A DNA stretch of 64,000 nt from Acidovorax sp. 106 (lineage in GTDB: Bacteria > Pseudomonadota > Gammaproteobacteria > Burkholderiales > Burkholderiaceae_C): assembly GCF_003663825.1 (NCBI RefSeq), contig NZ_RCCC01000001.1, positions 4,224,501 through 4,288,500 on the forward strand, written 5' to 3'. The notes beneath the pieces are model-generated. The model was not told the DNA's origin. It searched no databases and saw nothing but the letters and a program-made list of their open reading frames with translations. Position numbers and translations under genes: made by a program. Positions within the stretch are counted from its first letter, which is position 1. Each line of letters opens with the position of its first letter. Positions 30,481-43,576 of this stretch are shown here, in pieces.

Positions 30481-30736
30481 TTCAGAAGGCTTTTTGCCTT
30501 ATGCCGTATGGTTGCCCCGGTTGCCCATGCGCCCCGTGATGGCCCCTTGCAGCCACGCGCGTCTTGGTTGTGGTCCTGGGCTGCATTGCGCGCATCTGCC
30601 TTGGGTTGCACAAGCGCTGTGCAGGGGCGCACAAAGCCGACGGAAAAACTGATGGAAAATAGCGGGCTTGCTGCCACTCCCCGTAGGCCAGCAACCCGCC
30701 CGGCCTTCTAACCCTTTTGCTCCCCTGAGCCTGTCC

Positions 30737-32158
30737 ATGTCAGACGTCCACTCCTCCAAGATCTCTGTCGAGAAAATCGGCGGCACTTCCATGACCGCTT
30801 TTGGCGATGTGCTGCGCCACATCGTGCTGCACGACCCCAAGCGCATTAACGGCCGCATTTACGTGGTGTCTGCCTACTCGGGCGTGACGAACCAGTTGCT
30901 GGAGCACAAGAAGACGGGCGAGCGCGGCATCTATGCCTTGTTTGCGGAAGGCAAGGGTTACCAGGATGCCTTGACGGGCCTGGCTGCCAGCTTGAAGAAG
31001 CTCAATGCTGGCTACGCCGACATCGGCCTGCCGCTGGCTGTGGCCGATGCCTTTATCGACCAGCGCATTGGCCAGGCGCGCGAGTACCTGGGCGCAATGC
31101 ACCATGTGCTGGCCAGCGGCTACTTGAGCCGCAAGGATGTGCTGTTGGCCGCGCGCGAAGTTCTGGCATCGATTGGCGAGTCGCACAGCGCGTTCAACTC
31201 GGTCGAGATCCTCAAGGCCAATGGCGTGAATGCCATCCTGATGGACCTGGCCGGTTTTGACGACAACGAAGCCTGGACCATTGACGAGCGCATCGCCAAC
31301 AGCTTCAAGGGCATCGACCTGAGCGACAAGGTGGTGGTGGCCACGGGCTACACCAAGGGCACCGAAGGCATCATGCGCGAGTTTGACCGGGGCTACTCCG
31401 AAGTCACCTTCAGCAAGATCGCCGTGGAAGTGCGCCCCGCCGAGGCCGTGATCCACAAGGAATTCCACCTCTCGTCAGCCGATCCCAACCTGGTGGGCCT
31501 GGAAAACGCCATCGTGGTGGGTGCCACCAACTACGACGTGGCCGACCAACTGGCCGACGTGGGCATGGAAGCCATCCACCCCAAGGCCGCCAAGCCGATG
31601 GAGTTGGCGGGGATCCCCATCCGCCTGAAAAACACCTTTGAGCCCGACCACCCCGGCACGCTCATCACCAAAGACTTCGTGGGCGAACGCGCCCGCGTGG
31701 AGATCGTGACCGGCACCGACAAGGTCACCCTGATCGAGATCCACGACCCTAGCATGGTGGGCACCGTGGGCTTTGATGCAGGGCTGATGGAAGTGTTCTG
31801 CAAGCACGACGTGAGCTACATCCTGAAGGCCACCAACGCCAACTCCATCGCCCATCTGGTGTGGGACAACCAGGTGACTCCTGATCTGGTGGCAGAGCTG
31901 CAAGAGGCTTACCAGGTCGTGACCATCAAGCCCAGCGCCATCGTGTGCACCATCGGCTCCAACATCGGCATCCCCGGCGTGCTGGCCAAGGCTGCGCAGG
32001 CACTGGCCGACGCGCAGGTCAACGTGAACTGCGTGTCGCAGACCTTGCGCCAGGTGAATATGCAATTCGTGATTGAGCGCGAAGACTACAAGACCGCCAT
32101 CAAGGCACTGAACATGGCCTTGTGCGTCAACTCCGGCACGCCCGTGCCCCGCGTCTGA
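30737..32158 (+). CDS. Aspartate kinase, ectoine-cluster (Ask_Ect) type
   Basis: 473 residues from the Met at 30737. It opens with VEKIGGTSM rather than the usual KFGGTS. It then shows VVSAYSGVTNQLLEHKKTGE, DRGYSEVTFSKIA, IHKEFHLSSADP and NYDVADQLADVGMEAIHPKA, which together are the pattern of the Ask_Ect branch. Two ACT-type regulatory repeats follow (KVTLIEIHDPSMVGT and NIGIPGVLAKAAQALADAQV). It phosphorylates aspartate towards lysine, threonine, methionine or, in halophiles, ectoine. No ectABC genes are adjacent. Confidence 0.85.
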   Translation: MSDVHSSKISVEKIGGTSMTAFGDVLRHIVLHDPKRINGRIYVVSAYSGVTNQLLEHKKTGERGIYALFAEGKGYQDALTGLAASLKKLNAGYADIGLPLAVADAFIDQRIGQAREYLGAMHHVLASGYLSRKDVLLAAREVLASIGESHSAFNSVEILKANGVNAILMDLAGFDDNEAWTIDERIANSFKGIDLSDKVVVATGYTKGTEGIMREFDRGYSEVTFSKIAVEVRPAEAVIHKEFHLSSADPNLVGLENAIVVGATNYDVADQLADVGMEAIHPKAAKPMELAGIPIRLKNTFEPDHPGTLITKDFVGERARVEIVTGTDKVTLIEIHDPSMVGTVGFDAGLMEVFCKHDVSYILKATNANSIAHLVWDNQVTPDLVAELQEAYQVVTIKPSAIVCTIGSNIGIPGVLAKAAQALADAQVNVNCVSQTLRQVNMQFVIEREDYKTAIKALNMALCVNSGTPVPRV

Positions 32159-32174
32159 CACGAAGCCATCTTTC

Positions 32175-32202
32175 AAAAAGCCCGCCCCGTGCGGGCTTTT
32201 TT
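32175..32202 (+). terminator. Terminator after the aspartate kinase gene
   Basis: AAAAAGCCCGC pairs with GCGGGCTTTTTT around CCCGT, with flanking A- and T-runs. Confidence 0.88.
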
Positions 32203-32252
32203 GTGGGCAGGGTGGGGCACCCAGATGCGGCCTTAGCGGGTTTTGCAGGCCT

Positions 32253-32279
32253 TTATCTTTTTTTATCAAAATAAGATAA
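32253..32279. promoter_or_regulatory. GATAA-rich operator candidate before the AAA ATPase gene
   Basis: TTATCTT and AAGATAA are exact inverted copies 13 bp apart in a very AT-rich stretch. Two more GATAA words follow at 32294 and 32304, the last just before the start codon. The clustering suggests binding sites of a regulator; no regulator gene is next to it. Confidence 0.4.
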
Positions 32280-32309
32280 TTAACCATATTCAGATAAGTG
32301 GAGATAACC

Positions 32310-33458
32310 ATGGCCCCCGACGTGTTCCACCGCACCGCCTACGCAGAGCAAATGGCCCAGCAGTTGCTGCAGCCATCGCCCCTGCACATGAACGTGCGCT
32401 CGGGCGTGCTGCTTTCGGGCATACGCCGCGTGGGCAAGACCACCTTTTTGCGCCAGGACCTAGTGCCTGCGCTGGAGGCGCGGGGGGCGCTGGTGATTTA
32501 CGTGGACCTGTGGGCCGACCGCAGCAAAAGCCCTGCCGTGCTGGTGCTCGATGCTGTTCGCGCCACGCTGTTGCAAATGCAAACCCCAGGCTCGGGCTTG
32601 CTGCAGCGCTTCAAGGGGCTGAATTTGGGCGCGGCGGGCATCACGCTGGGTTTTCAGGTGGAGCATTTGGGCACGCCGGGCGGCACCACGCTGGCGCAGG
32701 CGTTTTCAGAGCTGGTGGCCAAGGCCAAGGTGGATGTGGTGCTGATCGTGGACGAAGTGCAGCAGGCCCTGGGCACCGAAGACGGCACCAGCTTGCTGCA
32801 CGCTCTCAAGGCGGCGCGCGATGCGGTCAATGCCCAGCCGGGCACGCCGGGGTGCTTCTTGTTTTTGGGCACGGGCTCGCACAAGTCGCTCATCACCGAC
32901 ATGGCCACACGCCACTCGCAGCCCTTTACGGGTGCGCTGACCACGGCCTACGAGCCACTGGGGCAAGACTTTGTGCAGTGGCAACTTCAGCGCATTGCAG
33001 GCAGCCCAGGCGTGGTGCTGCCCAGCACCGAAGTGGCTTGGGCAGGCTTTCAGTCGCTGGGCCACCGCCCTGAAGAAATGCTCAAAGCCTTGGTGCAACT
33101 GCAAAGCGCCCAGGCCCCGGCAGACCAGGCGTTCCCCATCATCTGCGCCACGCTGGCATCGGCCGCTGCCGATGTAGAGCTGCGCGCCATCGAAGAATTT
33201 GGCGAACTGGGCCAAGCGGTTTTCGACTACATCGCCCAAGGCAGCGAGACCGGCGTATCGGGCCTGTTTGGCGAAGAAGCCATGGCCAGCTACACCGCCC
33301 GCACCGGGGGCAAGGTGCCCACATCGCAGGTGCAAAAGCTGGCCGAAAAGATGATCAGCGCCAACCTGATCGCCCGCCCAGGCCACGGCATCTACACCGT
33401 GGCCGATCCGTTTGTGCGCAAGGTGTGGCTGGAGCGGCGGCGGTTGCTGCAGCGTTGA
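32310..33458 (+). CDS. AAA-family ATP-binding protein
   Basis: 382 residues starting at the ATG with GGAG seven bases upstream. Walker A is GIRRVGKTTFLRQDL, near residue 36-43, and Walker B is VDVVLIVDEVQQ, near residue 145. A sensor-like FLFLGTGSHKSL follows. This is the pattern of the archaeal-ATPase/STAND-like group often found as free-standing ATPases in accessory DNA. The C-terminal third looks like a winged helix (ASYTARTGGKVPTSQVQKLA). No nuclease partner is adjacent. It is the first gene of the accessory island; function unknown. Confidence 0.75.
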   Translation: MAPDVFHRTAYAEQMAQQLLQPSPLHMNVRSGVLLSGIRRVGKTTFLRQDLVPALEARGALVIYVDLWADRSKSPAVLVLDAVRATLLQMQTPGSGLLQRFKGLNLGAAGITLGFQVEHLGTPGGTTLAQAFSELVAKAKVDVVLIVDEVQQALGTEDGTSLLHALKAARDAVNAQPGTPGCFLFLGTGSHKSLITDMATRHSQPFTGALTTAYEPLGQDFVQWQLQRIAGSPGVVLPSTEVAWAGFQSLGHRPEEMLKALVQLQSAQAPADQAFPIICATLASAAADVELRAIEEFGELGQAVFDYIAQGSETGVSGLFGEEAMASYTARTGGKVPTSQVQKLAEKMISANLIARPGHGIYTVADPFVRKVWLERRRLLQR

Positions 33459-33494
33459 TCTGAACGTTGATCTGCAGCGGCTGGAAGATACTTC

Positions 33495-33545
33495 AATTTT
33501 GATAGCTGCCAGCGCTTGATGAAAAAGGGCTGGAGCCTGATTTTG
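33495..33545. repeat. Dispersed AGCGCTT-core repeat, copy
   Basis: AATTTTGATAGCTGCCAGCG followed by CTTGATGAAAAAGGGCTGGA GCC has the left arm of the element well conserved and the right arm as GGGCTGGAGCC. It follows the AAA gene stop by about 36 bp. Confidence 0.6.
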
Positions 33546-33675
33546 CTTAAGAGAAATAATTGCCTGGGGGCAAGACAAAAGACCTGACCTCAGCGCCCGC
33601 GATGGTGCAGGTAGTGGGCGTTCGCGAAAGTCAGGACGACGCCGAACGCAACTACCGCCAGGCCCGCGCGCTGCA

Positions 33676-33839: not shown

Positions 33840-34136
33840 ATGCAGAACGACGACTTGGCAGGCATCTACAACATCGGCGGCGGGGCCGAAGGCATTGGGC
33901 GGGCGCTGAAAGAGGCCGGGGCAGACCGCAAGATCGTGTTCATCGGCCACGGCCTCACGCCGGATACGCGGGCGCTGCTGATCGACGGGACGATGGACGC
34001 GGTGATCACCCAGAACCCGCAGGGCGCGGTGATGAACTGCGTGCGGATTTTTGCCAACCTGCGGGATGGGCGGGAGCCGACGAGTGGGGTGGAGACGACG
34101 CGGAGTCAGGTGATTTTTCGGGAGAATTTGCCGTAG
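33840..34136 (+). pseudogene. C-terminal remnant of a LacI-family sugar-responsive regulator
   Basis: 98 codons: DLAGIYNIGGGAEGIGRALK, IVFIGHGLTPDTRALLIDGT, MDAVITQNPQGAVMNCVRIF. This is the last third of the periplasmic-binding-protein-like domain of a LacI-type regulator (group with DLxGIYNxGGG and NPxxE/V). The DNA-binding and most ligand-binding parts are missing; the break coincides with the end of the 163-bp repeat. Confidence 0.75.
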
Positions 34137-34470
34137 GGGTGGTGCTGCGTCGCGTTGGCGGCAGGCCAGCAGGCGGGCAAAGGCGTGCTCTGTATGGGAA
34201 TACCTATGCTGAGCTGGCTCATTGATCGCTCAAGGCTGAGAGCCGTCGTTCATCTCTTACGCAGCCCGGAGCACCAAGGGCCCCGAAGGTGGCGCGGGTG
34301 AGCGGTCGTTCGTTCCCGCCAGCAATCAACCCGTTGCGGTCATCCAGATTTCAATCTCACAGTCGGAGAGCAGTCTGCCGCTCAAATCGAGCCAAGCTCG
34401 CCAGCTTCCGTTCAATGCAGGCTTGCTTTCGTGTCCGTTACAGTTACCCCAAAACACCAAAAGGGGAGCT
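34137..34470. other. 334-bp gap with no recognised feature
   Basis: I see no gene, RNA or repeat here apart from the GGGGAGCT ribosome site just before the next start. Base composition falls from the flanking high GC, marking the left edge of the accessory genes. Confidence 0.5.
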
Positions 34471-36627
34471 ATGACAAAGAGCGGAGGGGTCCGGATCCTT
34501 ACGGAGCCAAGTGCTGCTACGGCGCTCTTGGGAGAGGTCGTGCAGGCAGCAGACAGCGACCGAGACGCGCTCGGATTTTTCTCGCGCAGCGTCTATGCGG
34601 CCTTCTGTCGCAAAGGACAATTGTTTGTAGCGGTCGAGAGTGACGGTCGCGGCGAGACGTATGTCGGTCATCTGTTGTTTGATCTCCGCTTCCCCAAAGC
34701 GCACGTGCGGCAGATCTATGTTCCTAAGACAAGTCGCAGTCGAAACATCGGTCGGATGCTGCTCGATGCCTTGAAGAACATGTCCACGGAGGCACAGTTC
34801 ATTTCGATTCATGCCCGGGTAGCTGAAGACCTCAAAGACGCCAACTTGTTCTGGGAAGCGCAGGGGTTCTACGCCCAACGAGTTGAACCAGGAGGGGCTA
34901 GTCGCAATCGCATGATCGTGGTTCGCGCCCATGAACTCGACACCCCTCAGCTCTTTGCGCCCAGCGGAATCAACGCCGTTGACCCACTCGGCCTAGATGC
35001 CTTGGAGGGTGGGGGCAAACCGCTCTACCTTCTGGACTTGAATGTGCTTTTCGACCTCGGGCCTCGCCGGCCTCGGTACGAACTAGCCATGAGTGTCTTC
35101 AGGGCCGAGCGGATGCGGACATGTTCACTGGCGATTAGCAGCGAGATTGAGACGGAGCTGCGCCGCACCGCCCACGACGGAAAGACGGATCCGATGCTCT
35201 CGTTCGCAGGAACACTTGCGAAGTTCTCGACGCCACCAGACAACGAGTGGGAGCGCCTTTCGCCGATGCTTGCGGCAATCGTATTTCCCCAGCGCCATGC
35301 GTCGGGCTCGCTGTCGGAGAATGACCAGTCTGACCTGCAACACCTCGCAACGGCTATTCACCACGGCCTGCCAGGGCTCATAACCAGCGATGGACGAATT
35401 CTTGAGCGGGCACCTGAGCTCAGAAGGCAGTTTGGAGTGGACGCAATTTCGCCTGAGCTGTTTCAGGTCGATCCCGACCACACCGCGAGTCCTGTAGTGC
35501 ACAAGGCCCATAGTACGGACATCATCGAAGTGCAACCCGCATCGGCAAGCGATGCAACGGCCGTTCGGAGTCTGTTGACGAACCTTGGCCTCGACACTGC
35601 GACCCAGGTTAACGAATGGGCCGCGACTGAGGCCGATAATTCGGCGTGCTTGCGCCACGTGGCGCGATGCAATGGTGTCGTCGCTGGCTACTTAGTAATG
35701 CCGACGAGCATTCGAGGACAGGAGATTCGAGCTTTTGCGGCGGTTGCCGAGGACCAGAGAGACGCATATGAGATTGCCCAAACCTTGCTCCGACACGTTC
35801 TGAGCATCGTAAAACCAGGGGATGTCGGCCGGGTGCGGTTGAGCTGTCCTCCGCGTCAAGCCACGCTTCGCGAAGTCGCGGCAACCTTCGGCTATGTGGC
35901 GTCCTCATCGACGTCGGACGACCTTCAGAAGATCGTCGCCAAAGGGCGTATGACAGAACGTAACTGGGATGTCGGACGCAAATCGTTGGCGGCAGTGAGC
36001 AAACTAGGTTTGCCAGACACGCCCCCACTGTTCCGGCACGTCGATCAGCAAATTTCAGTGATTCGACCGGACGGGCAGAAAGTCTTGGTCCCGCTTTTCA
36101 AGTTGGAGTCCCTGCTGGCGCCGATGCTCATGTGCTTGCCAGGTAGAGAGGGTGTGATGGTCCCCCTGAGAAAGCAATTTGAGGAGCATCTCTTGGCGGA
36201 CTCACCGCAGGACTCCTTCCTGCCCCAAGGAAAGGCCCAGCTTGCACCGTTGCGCCACTACCTGAGCGACAAGAAGACACTTAAGAACTATTCGCGCGGT
36301 GATTTGATGTTCTTCTACGAGCCCGTGAAGAACGGAGGTTCCGGCGCTGTCATTGCGGTTGGTCGCGTACTACGTGCCTACCTTCGCGATGAGTCTGCCA
36401 TGCAAGCCGACGACTTGGCGCCCTCGGTGCTGGATAGCACCCAACTTTCCAGCATCGGGGTCGCGAAGACCAAGACCATCACGGTGTTCGACAATGTGTT
36501 GCGCCTGCCCAGGCCTGTACCGCTGCATGAGCTCAAGGCTTTGAACTGCGGCGAGGCCTACCAACTGATTACTTGCCAACGACTGTCTTCCGAGCAGGTT
36601 CAGGCGATCCTAGAAAAAGGCCTTTGA
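34471..36627 (+). CDS. GNAT-PIN-GNAT-EVE multidomain protein
   Basis: 718 residues from the ATG behind GGGGAGCT. (1) Residues about 20-150 are a GNAT acetyltransferase with VRQIYVPKTSRSRNIGRMLL as the acetyl-CoA loop and FWEAQGFY. (2) Residues about 185-330 are a PIN nuclease: D189 in LLDLNVLFD, E229 in EIETELRR, D288 in NDQSDLQHLATAI and D307 in ITSDGRIL. (3) Residues about 350-485 look like a second, diverged GNAT without a clear CoA loop. (4) Residues about 530-718 end in an EVE/PUA-like barrel (GDLMFFYEPV, AVIAVGRVLRAYL). Its stop overlaps the ASCH gene start. A tRNA- or RNA-acting role is inferred. Confidence 0.7.
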   Translation: MTKSGGVRILTEPSAATALLGEVVQAADSDRDALGFFSRSVYAAFCRKGQLFVAVESDGRGETYVGHLLFDLRFPKAHVRQIYVPKTSRSRNIGRMLLDALKNMSTEAQFISIHARVAEDLKDANLFWEAQGFYAQRVEPGGASRNRMIVVRAHELDTPQLFAPSGINAVDPLGLDALEGGGKPLYLLDLNVLFDLGPRRPRYELAMSVFRAERMRTCSLAISSEIETELRRTAHDGKTDPMLSFAGTLAKFSTPPDNEWERLSPMLAAIVFPQRHASGSLSENDQSDLQHLATAIHHGLPGLITSDGRILERAPELRRQFGVDAISPELFQVDPDHTASPVVHKAHSTDIIEVQPASASDATAVRSLLTNLGLDTATQVNEWAATEADNSACLRHVARCNGVVAGYLVMPTSIRGQEIRAFAAVAEDQRDAYEIAQTLLRHVLSIVKPGDVGRVRLSCPPRQATLREVAATFGYVASSSTSDDLQKIVAKGRMTERNWDVGRKSLAAVSKLGLPDTPPLFRHVDQQISVIRPDGQKVLVPLFKLESLLAPMLMCLPGREGVMVPLRKQFEEHLLADSPQDSFLPQGKAQLAPLRHYLSDKKTLKNYSRGDLMFFYEPVKNGGSGAVIAVGRVLRAYLRDESAMQADDLAPSVLDSTQLSSIGVAKTKTITVFDNVLRLPRPVPLHELKALNCGEAYQLITCQRLSSEQVQAILEKGL

Positions 36628-37064
36628 TGCAACCGAACCAGCATGTGCTCATATCACTTGACGAGCGCCATGCAAACAACATCCTCGCTGGTACTAAGCA
36701 AGTGGAGCTAAGGCGCAGGACCATGCACGTTGAGCCAGGCTCGACGATTTGGTTCTACGTGAAGAAACCTGTAGGTGCAGTCGTTGGTTTTGCGACCGTG
36801 GGCACGATCTACTCGGCCGCGCCGAGCACCGTCTGGCGTAAATACAGCTCCGTCTCAGGCCTCGGCAAGTCCGAGTTCATGAGCTACTTTGACGGGGTGG
36901 CTGTGGCGTCGGCGATGGCGCTGTCTGGCGCCAAGAAATTGAAGAAGCCCATCACGCTTGAAGCCCTTCGGACAGCCATGCCGGGGTTCCATCCGCCGCA
37001 GTTCTACTGTCGACTTGAGACCAATTCACCGGTCAGGCAGCGCCTTTTAGCAGTGACCGCCTAG
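36627..37064 (+). CDS. ASCH/PUA-like domain protein
   Basis: 145 residues. HVLISLDERHANNILAGTKQ followed by VELRRR is the ASCH opening (hydrophobic strand, helix, then the basic xFRRR strand), and TIWFYVKKPVGAVVGFATVG is the central barrel strand pair. ASCH domains bind RNA or modified nucleotides. The ATG shares its A with the TGA of the upstream fusion gene, so the two are translated together. Likely a recognition partner for the GNAT-PIN protein. Confidence 0.75.
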   Translation: MQPNQHVLISLDERHANNILAGTKQVELRRRTMHVEPGSTIWFYVKKPVGAVVGFATVGTIYSAAPSTVWRKYSSVSGLGKSEFMSYFDGVAVASAMALSGAKKLKKPITLEALRTAMPGFHPPQFYCRLETNSPVRQRLLAVTA

Positions 37065-37162
37065 GGTTGCCGCTATCTAGGAAAAGCTGGTCGATTCACA
37101 TCCAGGCACGGGCGGTGAGGGGCGCACCGTGTGCGTCTGATCCCCACAGGCAAAACTCCAAC

Positions 37163-37990
37163 ATGAATCTCTTCGTCATCAACACTGACCTCAAAGACGA
37201 TGCGGTTGACGCCGAGCATCACTGGTTTGACAGGGGCATCGCCGTCACAAGCGGTGGTCAGCGATACCGCAACGGCCTGAAGCGCCCTCGCGAAGGCGAC
37301 CTGCTGGCGCTATACGTCAATGGGCGTGGCATTGCGGCGGTTGGGCGCGCAGTCGATGACGTCGTTGTGGAGGTTCACGGGGATGACCTCGTCAATCCGA
37401 AGGAGTCGGAGGAGTACCACCGCGCCGTGGTCTGGCAGTACGACCTAAGGGAGGCGCCCATCACCATTCCCGCCCTTCGAGACCTCCGCATATTCGGACA
37501 GAACGCCGTCAGCCAGGTCAAGTTGAGCAGTGCGTACCAGGGGTTCCTTCAGCTCCTAGCTGGCCGGGCGGCCAAGCCACAGTCGGATCGAACGGAATTG
37601 AGGCGCTCGGCCGCCCTGGTCCAAAGGACCGGCCCGCTGAAGCGCCCAGCGGGGGCGCGGAAGCCGTTGCAGCGGCCGGCTCCTGGCATGGTTTTCGACC
37701 GCGATCCAGCCGTTAAGGCCTGGACACTTCGGCGTTCGAAGGGACTATGCGAGTGCTGCCGCCAGAAAGCGCCCTTCACAGACAAGGACGGGTTGCCTTA
37801 CCTTGAGTCCCATCACATCGTGCACCTAGCCAACGGCGGCACCGATACCCCTGACAACGCCGCGTCAGTTTGCCCGAACTGCCATAGGGAGCTTCACCAC
37901 GCGGGCGAGGCTCGCCGGCGGGAGTTGACGGACAAGCTGCGCCGTCACGTTCTTGAGACGGAAGAGGCATCTGGTGGGGTACTGGCCTAG
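37163..37990 (+). CDS. HNH endonuclease with N-terminal EVE-like domain
   Basis: 275 residues from the Met at 37163; the open frame extends upstream but without a ribosome site. Residues 1-110 resemble an EVE/PUA reader (REGDLLALYVNGRGIAAVGR). A basic linker with two RxxGPLKRP/RKPLQRP segments follows. Residues about 200-265 are an HNH nuclease: CECC, then YLESHHIVHLANGGTDTPDN and CPNCHRELHH, with four zinc Cys and the catalytic His. The domain pair resembles modification-dependent (type IV-like) restriction enzymes. It follows the ASCH gene by 98 bp. Confidence 0.8.
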   Translation: MNLFVINTDLKDDAVDAEHHWFDRGIAVTSGGQRYRNGLKRPREGDLLALYVNGRGIAAVGRAVDDVVVEVHGDDLVNPKESEEYHRAVVWQYDLREAPITIPALRDLRIFGQNAVSQVKLSSAYQGFLQLLAGRAAKPQSDRTELRRSAALVQRTGPLKRPAGARKPLQRPAPGMVFDRDPAVKAWTLRRSKGLCECCRQKAPFTDKDGLPYLESHHIVHLANGGTDTPDNAASVCPNCHRELHHAGEARRRELTDKLRRHVLETEEASGGVLA

Positions 37991-38226: not shown

Positions 38227-38991
38227 CTACATCAGTTCGAAAGGAGAAAGAACGCCGCAGAGCCTGCCCTGCTTTTCTTCGACAAGCCAAAGCCGCGTTT
38301 CCTTTCCCTGGTCATCCGCGAGAAGCTTTTGGACCTCATCCGTGGGGCCAACAACGGTAGCCTCCAGCAAGTCGAGCTCTTGGGCAGCTTCATCAATCGT
38401 GCGCGCGAGCGCCCCCGCCCAGTCCTTGCTAGCCAGCATGTACCTGGCGAGACCGTTCTCAGAAAGCAGCTTCCACCCATCCTTGAAGACAGGCAGAAAC
38501 GAGAAGGAGTGCGTGAGCATCAGCTGCCGTGCGTACGCGACCGGCTGCCAAACTTCCAGCACGACGGGTGACTTAACCATGAAGTCTTTGACGGCCTGGC
38601 GAGGGAGTTGCTGTTCTTTCATGAGTGCCTCTTCTAGGCCGATACAGAGTTCGATGGCTGCTGCCGTCGCATGCCGCGCGAAGACACCGGTATGCATCGC
38701 GTCGTTCCTCGCTTTTTTAACCACCGCAAAAAGCGCCGAGAAGGTGCTGAAACGTCCAGGTTGCGTCTCTGATAGTCGAGAAAGTACGACTGACGCATTG
38801 GCCAATGCAGCAAGCGCTTGCTCGTACTGGCCCAGGTTTTTCTTGCGGCCGAAAAGCCGTAGGCCTAGTGCCTCGAGCGCAAAACAGATCGCATCAAAGC
38901 CCTCGGCATCTGCCAGCGCAGCGTAACGGCCGGCACGCAGCGCATCGCGATGGTAGAGGCGCTCGTGCCATTGAAGCGTGGGAACATTCAT
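38227..38991 (-). CDS. HEPN-like domain fused to CBS pair
   Basis: 254 residues. The N-terminal helical half contains ARNDAMHTG with R95-x4-H100, the Rx4-6H catalytic motif of HEPN ribonucleases, preceded by the conserved long helices. The C-terminal half (about 132-254) has the two CBS half-motifs: VKDFMVKSPVVLEVWQPVAY with FSFLPVF, and LWLVEEKQGRLCGVLSPFEL. CBS pairs bind adenosine nucleotides, so a nucleotide-gated RNase is a reasonable inference. It converges on the HNH gene across 236 bp in which I see nothing. HEPN assignment rests on the motif and helicity only. Confidence 0.6.
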   Translation of the reverse strand: MNVPTLQWHERLYHRDALRAGRYAALADAEGFDAICFALEALGLRLFGRKKNLGQYEQALAALANASVVLSRLSETQPGRFSTFSALFAVVKKARNDAMHTGVFARHATAAAIELCIGLEEALMKEQQLPRQAVKDFMVKSPVVLEVWQPVAYARQLMLTHSFSFLPVFKDGWKLLSENGLARYMLASKDWAGALARTIDEAAQELDLLEATVVGPTDEVQKLLADDQGKETRLWLVEEKQGRLCGVLSPFELM

Positions 38992-39224
38992 CTGCGCGTT
39001 TGAAGGCCCTGCCGCAGGCCTTGATTTATTGACAATCAGTCAGTGTCGCAGATATAGGTAATATCTTTGAGCCATTCTCGATTGCATTGCCTCGTAGAGT
39101 GGCCCGTCGGGCCATCGCCCTGTAGCCGTAGGGAACGACTGCTTGATGCTGGACAGGGCGAGCACGCGTGCGCGCGGCCACTGGCCGCAAACGCTGCACA
39201 GCGGACATAGCGACTCGTAGTTGC

Positions 39225-39280
39225 TACTGTATTTATAGCTATTAGCGCTTTACCAATAAGCGCAAGGACCTATTTTTACT
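39225..39280. repeat. Dispersed AGCGCTT-core repeat, copy
   Basis: TGCTACTGTATTTATAGCTA then TTAGCGCTTTACCAATAAGC and GCAAGGACC: both arms (AGCGCTT/AAGCGC) are intact around a short AT centre. It ends at the stop codon of the SDR gene, so it may double as its 3' end. Confidence 0.7.
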
Positions 39281-40781
39281 AATATTCTGCGTGAGCCAAA
39301 CCTGTTCCCGCCGCATCAGTCAGTGCAAGGCCTGCCAGCGCACTACTCAGCCGCGGATGCACAAACCGGTATCCCTGGCTCAGCGCGGTACGCGGCACGG
39401 CAGACTGCCCATCCATCAGCAGGGTGGACATTTCCCCCAGTAGGACCCGCATCGGTAGCCCCGGCATGCGCAGCCAGACACATCGTCCAAACGATGCAGC
39501 CAGGGCCTGCGCAAACGTGGCCTGCGTCACCGCATCAGGCGCCACGGCATTGACGGGGCCTTGCAGGGTTTGGTGCGCCATCGCAAACCGCACCAGCCCC
39601 ACCGCGTCAGCCAGATGAATCCACGGCGCAGGCTGGCGGCCATTGCCCAGCACCGCGCCCAGGCCCAGCCGTGCGCTCAGGGCTTGCAGGGGGTAGGCGC
39701 CACCGCCATGCCCCAGCACCACACCAAAGCGCATGCGCACCACCCGCACGCCCAGGGCTTCGGCGCGGCGTGCCTCGTGCTCGATGGCCGCGCACAGGTC
39801 AGACTGGAACTCGCCAGGGCGGGGTGGGGCGGTTTCGTCCAACGGCTCCATCGACGCGTTGGGCGATGCGCCGTAGAAGCCGACGGCCGACGCGCTGACC
39901 AGCACGCGTGGGGCCTTGTGCAGGCGCCGCATCAGGCTAACGACTGCCACGGTGGTGTCGACGCGGCTGGCCAGCAGTTGGCGTCTGCGCGCCTGGGTCC
40001 ACGGCATGCCCAGCACGCGTGCGCCTGCCAGATTGACCACTGCGTCGATGGTCGTTTCAGACGGGATGGCGTCCAGGGTATCCACCACCCACACGCCGGG
40101 GCCAAAGCTGGCGCGGGCCTGCAGCGCGTCACGCGTCAACACGATCACCCGCTGGCCGTCGCGCACCAGGTCGGCCACCAGGGCGCTGCCCACAAAGCCT
40201 GTAGCGCCAGTGACCAAAGTAGCTGGCTGGGGTGAGAGACTGCTGGCAAGCGGGGCGCTCGTTTGAGCAGACGCGGCCACGCGGTACAGGTGCACGGTGG
40301 CGATCGCATTGCGCACGCTCCAGGCCCACACGCCCACCGCGTAGGCCGTGAACAGCCAAGACACCCAGCCGTGCGGGGCCAGCACCATGGCGGTAGGCTG
40401 CTGCAGCCAGCCCCACAGCACCGGGGCTACCAGTCCCAGGAACAGGCCGTAACTGATGGTCAGCAGCGTGTGCAGCAGGCGTTCAAACGGTGGCAGGCGC
40501 CGGGTGCGGTCTTCTTCCAAAAAGTCGGCCAGGGTAATGCCCAGCTCGATCACCAGCAGGGCCGCGAGCAGCGCGGCAAAGGCGCCGCGCCATTCAAACC
40601 AGGCCAGGCCGAAAAAGACGATGCCGTAGATGGCCTCGCGTGCGGCATGCAGCGCCAGCTCGTAGCGCGCCGAGGTGCGCTGCGGCAGCCGGGCCTCCAG
40701 CTCGTGGTGCCACAGGTTGTCAAACGCGCCCATCACGGCCTGGACGGACAGCAGCAGAAAAATGGTGTTCATGGCATTCAT
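39279..40781 (-). CDS. TIGR01777/YfcH-type SDR epimerase with N-terminal membrane domain
   Basis: 500 residues from the ATG behind GAGGGC. The first 175 residues contain four or so hydrophobic helices (for example AIYGIVFFGLAWFEW and LLTISYGLFLGLVAPVLWGW). The last 300 are an NAD(P)-binding SDR of the YfcH group: LVTGATGFVGSALVADLV, LAGARVLGMPWT, VSASAVGFYG, WIHLADAVGL. The fusion of a membrane part to this SDR is the oddity. It follows the DUF4166 gene by 37 bp in the same operon. Substrate unknown. Confidence 0.78.
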   Translation of the reverse strand: MNAMNTIFLLLSVQAVMGAFDNLWHHELEARLPQRTSARYELALHAAREAIYGIVFFGLAWFEWRGAFAALLAALLVIELGITLADFLEEDRTRRLPPFERLLHTLLTISYGLFLGLVAPVLWGWLQQPTAMVLAPHGWVSWLFTAYAVGVWAWSVRNAIATVHLYRVAASAQTSAPLASSLSPQPATLVTGATGFVGSALVADLVRDGQRVIVLTRDALQARASFGPGVWVVDTLDAIPSETTIDAVVNLAGARVLGMPWTQARRRQLLASRVDTTVAVVSLMRRLHKAPRVLVSASAVGFYGASPNASMEPLDETAPPRPGEFQSDLCAAIEHEARRAEALGVRVVRMRFGVVLGHGGGAYPLQALSARLGLGAVLGNGRQPAPWIHLADAVGLVRFAMAHQTLQGPVNAVAPDAVTQATFAQALAASFGRCVWLRMPGLPMRVLLGEMSTLLMDGQSAVPRTALSQGYRFVHPRLSSALAGLALTDAAGTGLAHAEY

Positions 40782-40818
40782 GGTTTTGCCCTCAGTGAGA
40801 AGAAAAATGGGTAGGTGG

Positions 40819-41508
40819 TCAATCGGTGCGCTCATCGGCCACGGGGTCGGTGAATACGCCGGACTGGTGGAAGGTTTCGCCCCACAGCGGGTGCACCATG
40901 CTCAGCGTGAAGCGGAACTGGCCTGCGCCCAGGTCGGTGTGGGCCACCCGGCAGGTGCCCGGCGTGAGCAGGGTGGGCACAGGGATGCGCAGGCGCCCCA
41001 GCACCCACCAAAAGCGGCGGCTGCGAAACACCAGCGAGCCGTCCTCCTCGAGCACATCCAGCGACATGGCCAAGCCGCCATCGGTGCGTTCGAGCAAGCC
41101 GCCATCGGCGCCCAGCTCCTTGGTCGATCGCACAGTGCGGTCTGCTCCGTGGTGGGCGCCGTTTTCGGATTCAGTGCCGGTGTGAAAGCACCGCTCCCAC
41201 ACCACACCTCCGCGCCCGTTGTGGCTGACGCGCACAGTGGCGGGCAGGGCGGTGGTGTGGAGGTGGGTCAGCGGGCCGCCCCAGGGGCGGGTCAATGCGG
41301 CATAGACATGGCCGATCCGCGAGCAGCGCAGGTCCATCTGGCCGCGGTAGCTCACATCGGCGTGTGCCAGGCCAAAGCGGCGCTGCACGGCGGCGGGCAG
41401 GCGTGCCCAGGCTGCGGCACCCACCAAGGCGCGCAGATCCAGATCGCGGGCTGGGCCGACGGCGGGTGCTTCGCTGTGGCGGGACGCAGGGGTGAAAAGG
41501 GCAAACAT
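40819..41508 (-). CDS. DUF4166 domain protein
   Basis: 229 residues. It shows the DUF4166 layout: LPAAVQRRFG near residue 40, then YRGQMDLRCSRIG, and a C-terminal RFTLSMVHPLWGETFHQSG. DUF4166 is often found fused to or beside YfcH-type SDRs, as here. No signal peptide or catalytic motif. Function unknown. Confidence 0.78.
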   Translation of the reverse strand: MFALFTPASRHSEAPAVGPARDLDLRALVGAAAWARLPAAVQRRFGLAHADVSYRGQMDLRCSRIGHVYAALTRPWGGPLTHLHTTALPATVRVSHNGRGGVVWERCFHTGTESENGAHHGADRTVRSTKELGADGGLLERTDGGLAMSLDVLEEDGSLVFRSRRFWWVLGRLRIPVPTLLTPGTCRVAHTDLGAGQFRFTLSMVHPLWGETFHQSGVFTDPVADERTD

Positions 41509-41704
41509 GCTGGGCTCGGAAGGAGTGGCGGTTGCTCTCTCTATTGCGAAACCCGGGCCAGCCTCATCGTGCGCTGCAAGTGCTTGATTTCATTGAAATT
41601 CGCTGGCCGACCTGCATACTTGGTTTACAGTGCGCGCAGCCCCACCGTTAACCCCAGGAACAGGTCTCCGCCATGTGCAACGTCTTTGCCCACCCTGTCT
41701 GCGC

Positions 41705-43576
41705 ATGCTGATCCACGCCGTCCTGGGGTTTTCGGTGCTCGAAACGCTGGTGCTGGCCGCGGTGCTGCTGGCCTGGGCCGACCGCGTGGCGGGTGCCCGG
41801 CTTTTGGCGGCTTTTTTGACCGGTATCTCGCTGTGGATGGTGGGCAACGAACTGCCCAACTGGCTGGGCCCCGAGACCGAGCCTGTGGCCATGCGCTTGC
41901 TGGCGACGGCGCCATTCGCCTCTGCGCTGTTCTTTCATTTCTGCACGGTGTTTTGCCGCGTGGACCTGGGGCGCTGGGGTGTTGCGGCAGCCTATGCGCT
42001 GGGCGGGTGCGCTACGGTGGTTTCCATGGTTTTGGTGCCAGGGCACTTGATCCATCACCGTGACATAGGCTGGATTGCGGTTGCAGACACCGTAGGCGCT
42101 GTGGCCAGCATGGCCTGGGTCATTCTGGGCATTGGCGGTGTGGCGGTGCTGGTGCATGCTTTGCTGCGTGCACGCCAGTCGGGCGACGGGCAGAAATTTC
42201 GGCAAATTGCTGCGGTCACCGCATCGTGCCTGTGGGGCCTGCTGTGCCTGGCGGGCTACGGCATTGCGGTGCTGGATCTTCCGATCTATCCGTTTCCCTT
42301 GCTGGGCCTGCCGCTCTACTCGTTGATTTTGGTCTACGGCATCTTGCGCTATGGCGTGTTTGTGGCCAACGCCTGGGCCCGCCGCGCCCTGGTGTGGGCG
42401 CTGCTGCTGGCGCTGGGGGCGGTGGTGCTGGCGCTCACGCCACTGCTGCCGTTTGAATCGCGCTGGCTGGGTGGGCTGGCGGTAGCGGCCAGTGTGCTGG
42501 CGCTCAACGGCCCAGTGCGCCGCGTGGCCGAGCGGCTGGTGTACCCCGGGGGCGAGGTGTCCATAGCCGACCTGGGTGCCTGGCGCAGCGCGCTGCTGTC
42601 GGCCGATACGCCCCAGGCCTTGGCGCAGCAGGCCGCCCAGTTGCTGGGCCAGCGCATCGGCACGCAGGTCGAAGTCCATCTCGGCGGCCCATTGGCACCC
42701 GCAACGCCTGCCATACCCCCGGCCGGTACCCCGCAGCTGGTGTGCAGCCCAGGCCCGCAAGGCTGGCAGACCACGCTGCAGGGCTGGGACGCCGCACCGC
42801 CGGGGCCACGCCATGTGGCCGAGCTGTTTGGCACCGTGGTGGCCGAGGCCGCAGCGCGTGTCGAGCAGTCGCAGCAGTTTGCCGCCCGCGAGCGCGAGCG
42901 CCAGTTGCAGGCGCGGCTGGCCGAACTGGGCGCGCTGGCGGCCACCGTGGCCCATGACATCCGCAACCCGCTCAACATCATCTCCATGGCCGTAGCCGCC
43001 GCGCCCGCCGACACGCGCCGCGAGGTGGCAGACCAGGTGGCGCGCATTGCCCACCTCACCAACGACTTGCTGGACTTTGCCAAACCCTGGAAGCTGGTGC
43101 CCCGCGAACTGGACCTGGCCGCCCATGTGCGCACCGCAGCCCAACGCCTGCCCGCTGTGACCCTGGGCGCAGGCCTGGCCCAGCCGCTGCCACTGCACGC
43201 CGACCCCCGCCGCATAGACCAGGCACTGACCAACTTGCTGGAGAACGCGCGCACTGCGCTGGCATCCGGCGCCGCGGAACCCTATGGTGCTGCAGATATC
43301 GCAGCAGCCACTGCGCACAGCCCCGTGCACATTGACGCAGAAACCACCGACAACGCCGTGCTGCTGCACATCTGCGACGCCGGCCCCGGGGTGCCCGACG
43401 AAATCCGCAGCCGCCTGTTCGAGCCCTTTGCATCGCGCAGCCCCGGCGGCACCGGGCTGGGCCTGGCCATCGTGGCCCGCATCATGGCCGCGCACGGCGG
43501 CTCGGTGGCGCTGACCGAGCGGCCACCGTGGAGCACCTGCTTTACGCTGCACTTTCCTTTGACGCCCCCACCATGA
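41705..43576 (+). CDS. Multi-pass membrane sensor histidine kinase
   Basis: About 623 residues if the Met at 41705 is used; the frame is open to 41630 and the start is uncertain. Seven or eight membrane helices fill residues 1-280. A GAF-like linker and a coiled coil (residues about 375-410) lead to HisKA with H417 in TVAHDIRNPLN, then HATPase with NLLENARTAL, DAGPGVP and GGTGLGLAIVARI. It overlaps the next gene by four bases, so they form a cognate two-component pair. Confidence 0.88.
   Translation: MLIHAVLGFSVLETLVLAAVLLAWADRVAGARLLAAFLTGISLWMVGNELPNWLGPETEPVAMRLLATAPFASALFFHFCTVFCRVDLGRWGVAAAYALGGCATVVSMVLVPGHLIHHRDIGWIAVADTVGAVASMAWVILGIGGVAVLVHALLRARQSGDGQKFRQIAAVTASCLWGLLCLAGYGIAVLDLPIYPFPLLGLPLYSLILVYGILRYGVFVANAWARRALVWALLLALGAVVLALTPLLPFESRWLGGLAVAASVLALNGPVRRVAERLVYPGGEVSIADLGAWRSALLSADTPQALAQQAAQLLGQRIGTQVEVHLGGPLAPATPAIPPAGTPQLVCSPGPQGWQTTLQGWDAAPPGPRHVAELFGTVVAEAAARVEQSQQFAARERERQLQARLAELGALAATVAHDIRNPLNIISMAVAAAPADTRREVADQVARIAHLTNDLLDFAKPWKLVPRELDLAAHVRTAAQRLPAVTLGAGLAQPLPLHADPRRIDQALTNLLENARTALASGAAEPYGAADIAAATAHSPVHIDAETTDNAVLLHICDAGPGVPDEIRSRLFEPFASRSPGGTGLGLAIVARIMAAHGGSVALTERPPWSTCFTLHFPLTPPP

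Follow-up and report, generated by a model that had tools for sequence, protein, structure and literature searches.

Operons that join a (PIN)-GNAT-EVE protein to an ASCH protein, often with an ATPase included, were described by Bell et al. in 2020, who already proposed a toxin-antitoxin role for this class (PMC7641849). In the accessible part of that article, EVE and ASCH are presented as readers of modified bases, Iyer et al. 2013 are cited for base acetylation, and none of the PIN, GNAT, HTH, EVE and ASCH modules is listed as experimentally characterised as of 2020. Within the accessible texts of the literature searched, PIN-GNAT-EVE proteins were described by Bell et al. only. The candidate defence database PADLOC contains a related pair, PDC-M11, for which no paper was found in the literature searched.

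Here we analysed a 64,000-nt stretch of DNA from Acidovorax sp. 106 (the window, whose numbering is used for all coordinates). It carries a 718-residue GNAT-PIN-GNAT-EVE protein and, directly downstream, an ASCH protein. The features of the locus are as follows.

34326-34470 (+): upstream stretch, common to the loci L019 (Diaphorobacter) and L020 (Pelomonas MAG) along with both genes
34471-36627 (+): GNAT-PIN-GNAT-EVE gene, 718 aa
34486-34938 (+): GNAT1, residues ~6-156, Ard1/Naa50/RimI-like fold, CoA loop residues retained
35020-35463 (+): PIN, residues ~184-331, with D189, E229, D288 and D307 (Pfam, PDC-M11A match, conserved acidic residues, structure model)
35518-35940 (+): GNAT2, residues ~350-490, GNAT fold lacking the CoA loop (modelled separately and compared with the PDB)
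36223-36603 (+): EVE, residues 585-711 (Pfam EVE)
36627-37064 (+): ASCH partner, 145 aa, start codon sharing one base with the stop codon of the large gene

An initial annotation had read this locus as a single GNAT-PIN-GNAT-EVE chain coupled to an ASCH protein through overlapping stop and start codons. Profile matches, conservation and two structure models all bore out the single chain and its coupled partner, and the overlap was confirmed as one base, the last base of the TGA of the large gene (36625-36627) being the first base of the ASCH ATG. The promoter of the two-gene unit likely lies in 34326-34470.

Domains of the large protein

The large protein contains the acidic site residues of PIN nucleases. 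D189, N191, E225, E229 and D288 were invariant in all 115 full-length homologues (the window protein included, drawn from the best 120 of 492 homologues), and D307 was D in 114 of them and E in one, which agrees with the complete acidic quartet claimed before. In a second set of 43 sequences, made up of the genome-scan sequences and two further loci, the same five residues were present in 43/43, and D307 was D in 41 and E in 2. Pfam PIN matched 24–33 of 69 homologues, PADLOC PDC-M11A matched residues 187-319 of the large protein, and the alpha/beta order in the structure model fitted PIN. The domain is predicted to be a nuclease. PIN domains act mostly on RNA.

At the C-terminus, Pfam EVE was found at residues 585-711 with 30.2 bits (cut-off 23) and in 57 of 69 homologues; a C-terminal EVE domain is a feature of the Bell 2020 class that the window protein shares. 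When the whole model was compared with the PDB, the matches were taken up by GNAT1, so the PIN and EVE domains were assigned on their sequence and predicted secondary structure. The initial annotation expected a second GNAT and an EVE barrel in a model of residues 350-718: the GNAT fold of GNAT2 was recovered in a separate model compared with the PDB, while the EVE part rests on sequence and secondary structure.

GNAT2 has lost its CoA loop, as had been noticed in the window sequence, and the loop was missing in 41/41 aligned sequences as well as in L074 and L079 (the set of 41 and the counts that depend on it leave out L039, L053 and partial loci). In L039 and L053 the large gene is split over two reading frames, and these may be inactivated copies or sequencing errors. 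The dN/dS ratios of GNAT2 were 0.136 against L019 and 0.106 against L020, compared to 0.141 and 0.122 for the whole protein, showing that GNAT2 is still under purifying selection like the rest of the protein. It was also the most variable domain, with a mean distance of 0.646 versus 0.450-0.475 for the other domains. Because GNAT2 has the fold without the cofactor loop, it is probably a scaffold, and acetyl transfer would have to come from GNAT1. The idea that GNAT2 is recognisably related in sequence to the internal GNAT of canonical PIN-GNAT-EVE proteins was rejected (hhalign E 0.35 and 0.49). The two domains agree in place and fold only, and GNAT2 may at most be a decayed canonical GNAT.

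GNAT1 has kept its loop. R89 was present in 115/115 homologues and position 94 was G or A in 115/115; in the set of 43, position 89 was R in 40, K in 2 and Q in 1, and position 94 was A in 31, G in 11 and S in 1. Residue 128, which aligns with a tyrosine in Ard1, was Trp in 115/115 homologues and Tyr solely in six alphaproteobacterial sequences of the 43. The tyrosine of the 'FY..GF' stretch is a general acid in some GNATs, and Trp at this position would count against ordinary acetyl transfer by GNAT1. In hhalign comparisons, GNAT1 matched the canonical GNAT with E 0.00089 and 0.03, and it matched GNAT2 with E 0.0028, values that point to no clear parentage. Forms without GNAT1 were sought among the six short homologues listed and were not accepted: P0037 starts at residue 192 and P0061 at residue 215, both within PIN, and the two look fragmentary.

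The ASCH partner and the spread of the two-gene unit

The ASCH partner matched PADLOC PDC-M11B (2.4e-26) and was homologous over its full length to the crystal structures of ZmASCH from Zymomonas mobilis (PDB 5gus, 5guq, 5y6b, 5y6c), with E-values of 2.8e-17 for the single sequence and 5e-36 for a profile of 31 sequences. The ZmASCH record is named as a helix-turn-helix protein, and the window partner is without the HTH part. According to the accessible part of its report, ZmASCH binds nucleic acids, cuts ssRNA between a pyrimidine and A, and left ssDNA undegraded; Tyr47, Lys53 and Ser128 contribute to the activity, and Arg32, Tyr90 and Gln127 also lie at the RNA in the published model (PMC5615036). 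Tyr47 corresponds to Tyr44 here (31/31), and Arg32, Tyr90 and Gln127 correspond to Arg29, Tyr87 and Gln125, all invariant in the 31 sequences. Lys53 and Ser128, by contrast, align with Gly50 and Phe126 in the window partner. Since two of the three mutated ZmASCH residues are not kept, this protein may be able to bind RNA but not to cut it.

The E. coli ASCH protein YqfB is reported, in the accessible text, to deacetylate N4-acetylcytidine through a Thr-Lys-Glu triad (PMC6972931). The window partner shares the ASCH fold and the Lys21 position with YqfB, but the position of the Thr24 nucleophile is Glu27 in 31/31 sequences, in a register taken from a weak profile match (E 0.25). A YqfB-like eraser role was rejected on this ground.

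A single scan of the genome collection recovered 47 loci, of which 43 had an ASCH frame directly 3' of the large gene; in the remaining four (L047, L056, L059 and L061) the contig ended before the ASCH position. The ASCH protein can thus be regarded as a linked partner, as the initial annotation had supposed. Two more linked pairs were found on a Caulobacter plasmid and in L079, a genome of the same class. The distances of the two proteins were correlated (r 0.947, 39 loci), a value that none of 2000 shuffles reached, and the correlation held without the alphaproteobacteria (r 0.902, 34 loci); shared descent alone also yields such correlations.

Similarity between distant sites was confined to the unit. 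Positions 34326-37070 of the window were 93.7% identical in DNA to the Diaphorobacter locus L019, and positions 34321-37070 were 88.9% identical to the Pelomonas MAG locus L020. Both matches stopped 6 bases past the ASCH stop, and no other match of at least 100 bases to the window was found around the unit in these two loci; the match of L019 to L020 extended 78 bases further. Between Bradyrhizobium L057 and Rhodopseudomonas L064, the match barely exceeded the two genes. The unit was missing from the corresponding site of the closest relative genome, whose flanks matched the window at 94% over 30646-33599 and at 92% over 39221-42246; in that genome, 4.7 kb of other DNA separated the two flanks. 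Several Paraburkholderia loci have common flanks, which indicates that inheritance was partly vertical. The two genes are one unit, inherited and moving together. Upstream of it, the 296 bases at 33842-34137 were 93-96% identical to two relative genomes (L069 and L071); by eye they resemble a segment of a sugar-binding LacI/periplasmic protein and are likely left over from an earlier occupant of this variable site.

The GNAT-PIN-GNAT-EVE form is rare and patchy. In a search at the order level, the own genome was the sole long match among 399 genomes, and the second match covered the GNAT only. In a search of the phylum, 10/398 genomes matched, and in three, the own genome included, the match spanned the long form. 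Matches were found in 0/50,697 phage records and in 1/72,556 plasmid records.

Candidate functions of the pair

The whole is best explained, in our tentative judgement, by a defence unit that finds and cuts RNA. The EVE domain and the ASCH partner would select and bind an RNA, the PIN domain would cut it, and GNAT1 would acetylate that RNA, an aminoacyl-tRNA or a protein. GNAT2 would be the scaffold between cutter and reader, and the ASCH protein could be a co-reader, a co-nuclease or a restraint. The purpose would be defence by RNA cleavage and a translation block in the invaded cell, with toxicity, immunity and phage defence as putative properties of the pair. RNA is the likelier target because the partner is homologous to ZmASCH, a reported ssRNA nuclease. 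This explanation is supported by the PIN and GNAT1 residues, the loop loss of GNAT2, the EVE match, the ASCH linkage, the homology of the partner to ZmASCH with its four invariant residues at the RNA, the PDC-M11 match, the four upstream neighbours that are known defence genes, the unit-confined similarity between distant sites and the absence of the unit from the closest relative; against it stand the changes at ZmASCH Lys53 and Ser128, the Trp at residue 128, the upstream neighbours without a defence match, the PDC-M11A miss in the own genome and the lack of a phage record.

A plain two-gene toxin-antitoxin system, in which the large protein is a constant toxin that the ASCH antitoxin neutralises by binding and in which a phage trigger is unneeded, is a possible but rather unlikely alternative. 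It would fit the overlapping genes, their strict linkage and the correlated distances, it would draw on GNAT and PIN as common toxin folds, and it is the role proposed by Bell et al. 2020 (PMC7641849). However, the toxin-like gene stands first, the partner is homologous to a reported RNase and not to a known antitoxin, a four-domain toxin of 718 aa is unusual, and the distance correlation is also expected from shared descent.

A further reading, in which the acetyltransferase has moved, is unlikely as well. The internal GNAT would have turned into a scaffold lacking the loop, with a new Ard1/RimI-like GNAT placed before PIN, so that the chain would mark an RNA-linked target and cut an RNA chosen by EVE and a ZmASCH-like co-nuclease.

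The neighbouring genes lean towards a defence role. Upstream neighbours, taken once per locus at 20 loci, included four matches to known defence genes at E <= 1e-8, a count given without a background rate: Wadjet JetC (L036), a type III methyltransferase (L032 and L046) and IetS (L040). The other 16 of the 20 had no PADLOC family at E <= 1e-8. A wider scan covered 86 of 142 neighbours, with the first 25 families listed per scan; the 142 exclude 12 loci, mostly near-duplicates or Paraburkholderia-type. Here the models for JetD, for the type III methyltransferase and for mad3 had two matches apiece among the 86 neighbours, again without a background rate, and many metabolic families were also present.

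In the window itself, a gene with a C-terminal HNH nuclease at 37163-37987 (+) matched a PADLOC type IV restriction-like model (2.9e-31) and begins 98 bases past the ASCH stop. It was considered as a third member and rejected, since it lies outside the unit common to L019 and L020. A CBS-domain protein at 38227-38991 (-) had an E-value of 0.00025, under the Pfam cut-off, and a faint match (E 0.074) to an anti-phage CBS model; it lies where the window and the closest relative diverge. At another locus, a second ASCH gene (L048:11652-12086, -) resembled the partner of canonical PIN-GNAT-EVE proteins (72.9 bits) more closely than did the ASCH next to the GNAT-PIN-GNAT-EVE gene of L048, and a tblastn search with one canonical PIN-GNAT-EVE protein over 49 loci, L048 included, found no canonical large gene at E 1e-3.

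In a restriction-like reading, modified bases of invading DNA or of its transcripts would be recognised by EVE and ASCH, which would recruit PIN, and GNAT1 would modify a base. The published view of EVE and ASCH as modified-base readers and the citation of Iyer et al. for base acetylation (PMC7641849) speak for it, as do the type III methyltransferase genes adjoining two loci and the type-IV-like HNH gene next in the window. Yet the HNH gene is outside the shared unit, ZmASCH did not degrade ssDNA (PMC5615036), and we regard this reading as improbable. The mostly RNA-directed action of PIN domains points the same way. Equally improbable is a resident RNA-processing or regulatory enzyme with no conflict role, which would suit the nearly always chromosomal location (with the phage and plasmid counts above), the common flanks of several Paraburkholderia loci and the many metabolic families among the neighbours, but sits poorly with the rare, patchy occurrence (one long match, the own genome, in the 399 genomes searched at the order level and 3/398 in the phylum search) and with the closest relative lacking the unit at the corresponding site.

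Comparison with described systems

The RNA-cutting defence unit favoured here is closest to the (PIN)-GNAT-EVE and ASCH operons of Bell et al. 2020. As far as the accessible text defines that class, the two share PIN, a GNAT fold and EVE in equal order and an ASCH gene in the operon, and they differ in that the window form has a GNAT of ~150 residues ahead of PIN; in the class, PIN is N-terminal if present, so the window form is filed as a variant. In profile comparisons of the canonical and window forms, PIN matched PIN with E 2e-5 and EVE matched EVE with 2.2e-9, and the ASCH proteins of the two forms were homologous. The internal GNAT of the canonical form keeps R-G-x-K-x-G in 119/119 sequences (from the best 120 of 1330 relatives of L003), whereas GNAT2 of the window form is without the loop. 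The ATPase gene, which is often but not always in the class as described, was missing from the window-form loci, where two canonical ATPases had no match at E <= 0.01 among the ORFs of the 47 loci. The added N-terminal GNAT, the loop-less internal GNAT and the absence of a canonical ATPase at 47 loci make the window form a variant.

Examples of the shorter form were also present in our data. A search with the PADLOC model brought up L002 and L003, which have a 490-residue form followed by an ASCH protein and a short P-loop protein (domains assigned by eye and hhalign), and L076 has an annotated N-acetyltransferase, an ASCH match and an ATP-binding protein. On the Paracoccus plasmid pAK2 (L075:3614-5948, +), a PIN-GNAT-EVE-like frame of 513 residues, absent from the annotation, overlaps an HTH-ASCH gene; the GNAT loop of this frame looks intact, and an annotated ATPase comes after it.

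PDC-M11A (2.7e-8) and PDC-M11B (2.4e-26) matched side by side in the window, so the locus resembles this PADLOC candidate defence pair in having A and B adjacent. The A profile (486 positions) starts at PIN, while the window protein is ~180 residues longer in front, and PDC-M11A matched in pieces, at 187-319 and, with a second model, at 563-717. In a six-frame search of the own genome, PDC-M11A was below threshold (E 0.001). The GNAT-PIN-GNAT-EVE order had no description in the accessible texts of the literature searched, and an earlier mention in Iyer et al. 2013 is possible.

GNAT toxins of the TacT/AtaT type and VapC-type PIN toxins are short, single-domain proteins with small DNA-binding antitoxins. 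The window protein has the same GNAT and PIN folds, but here they are fused in one chain and the partner is an ASCH protein. The variant separates the roles, with a loop-bearing and a loop-less GNAT in one chain and a partner whose homologue has been solved and assayed as an RNase; if the favoured explanation is true, the large protein would combine reading, marking and cutting of RNA in a one-chain enzyme.
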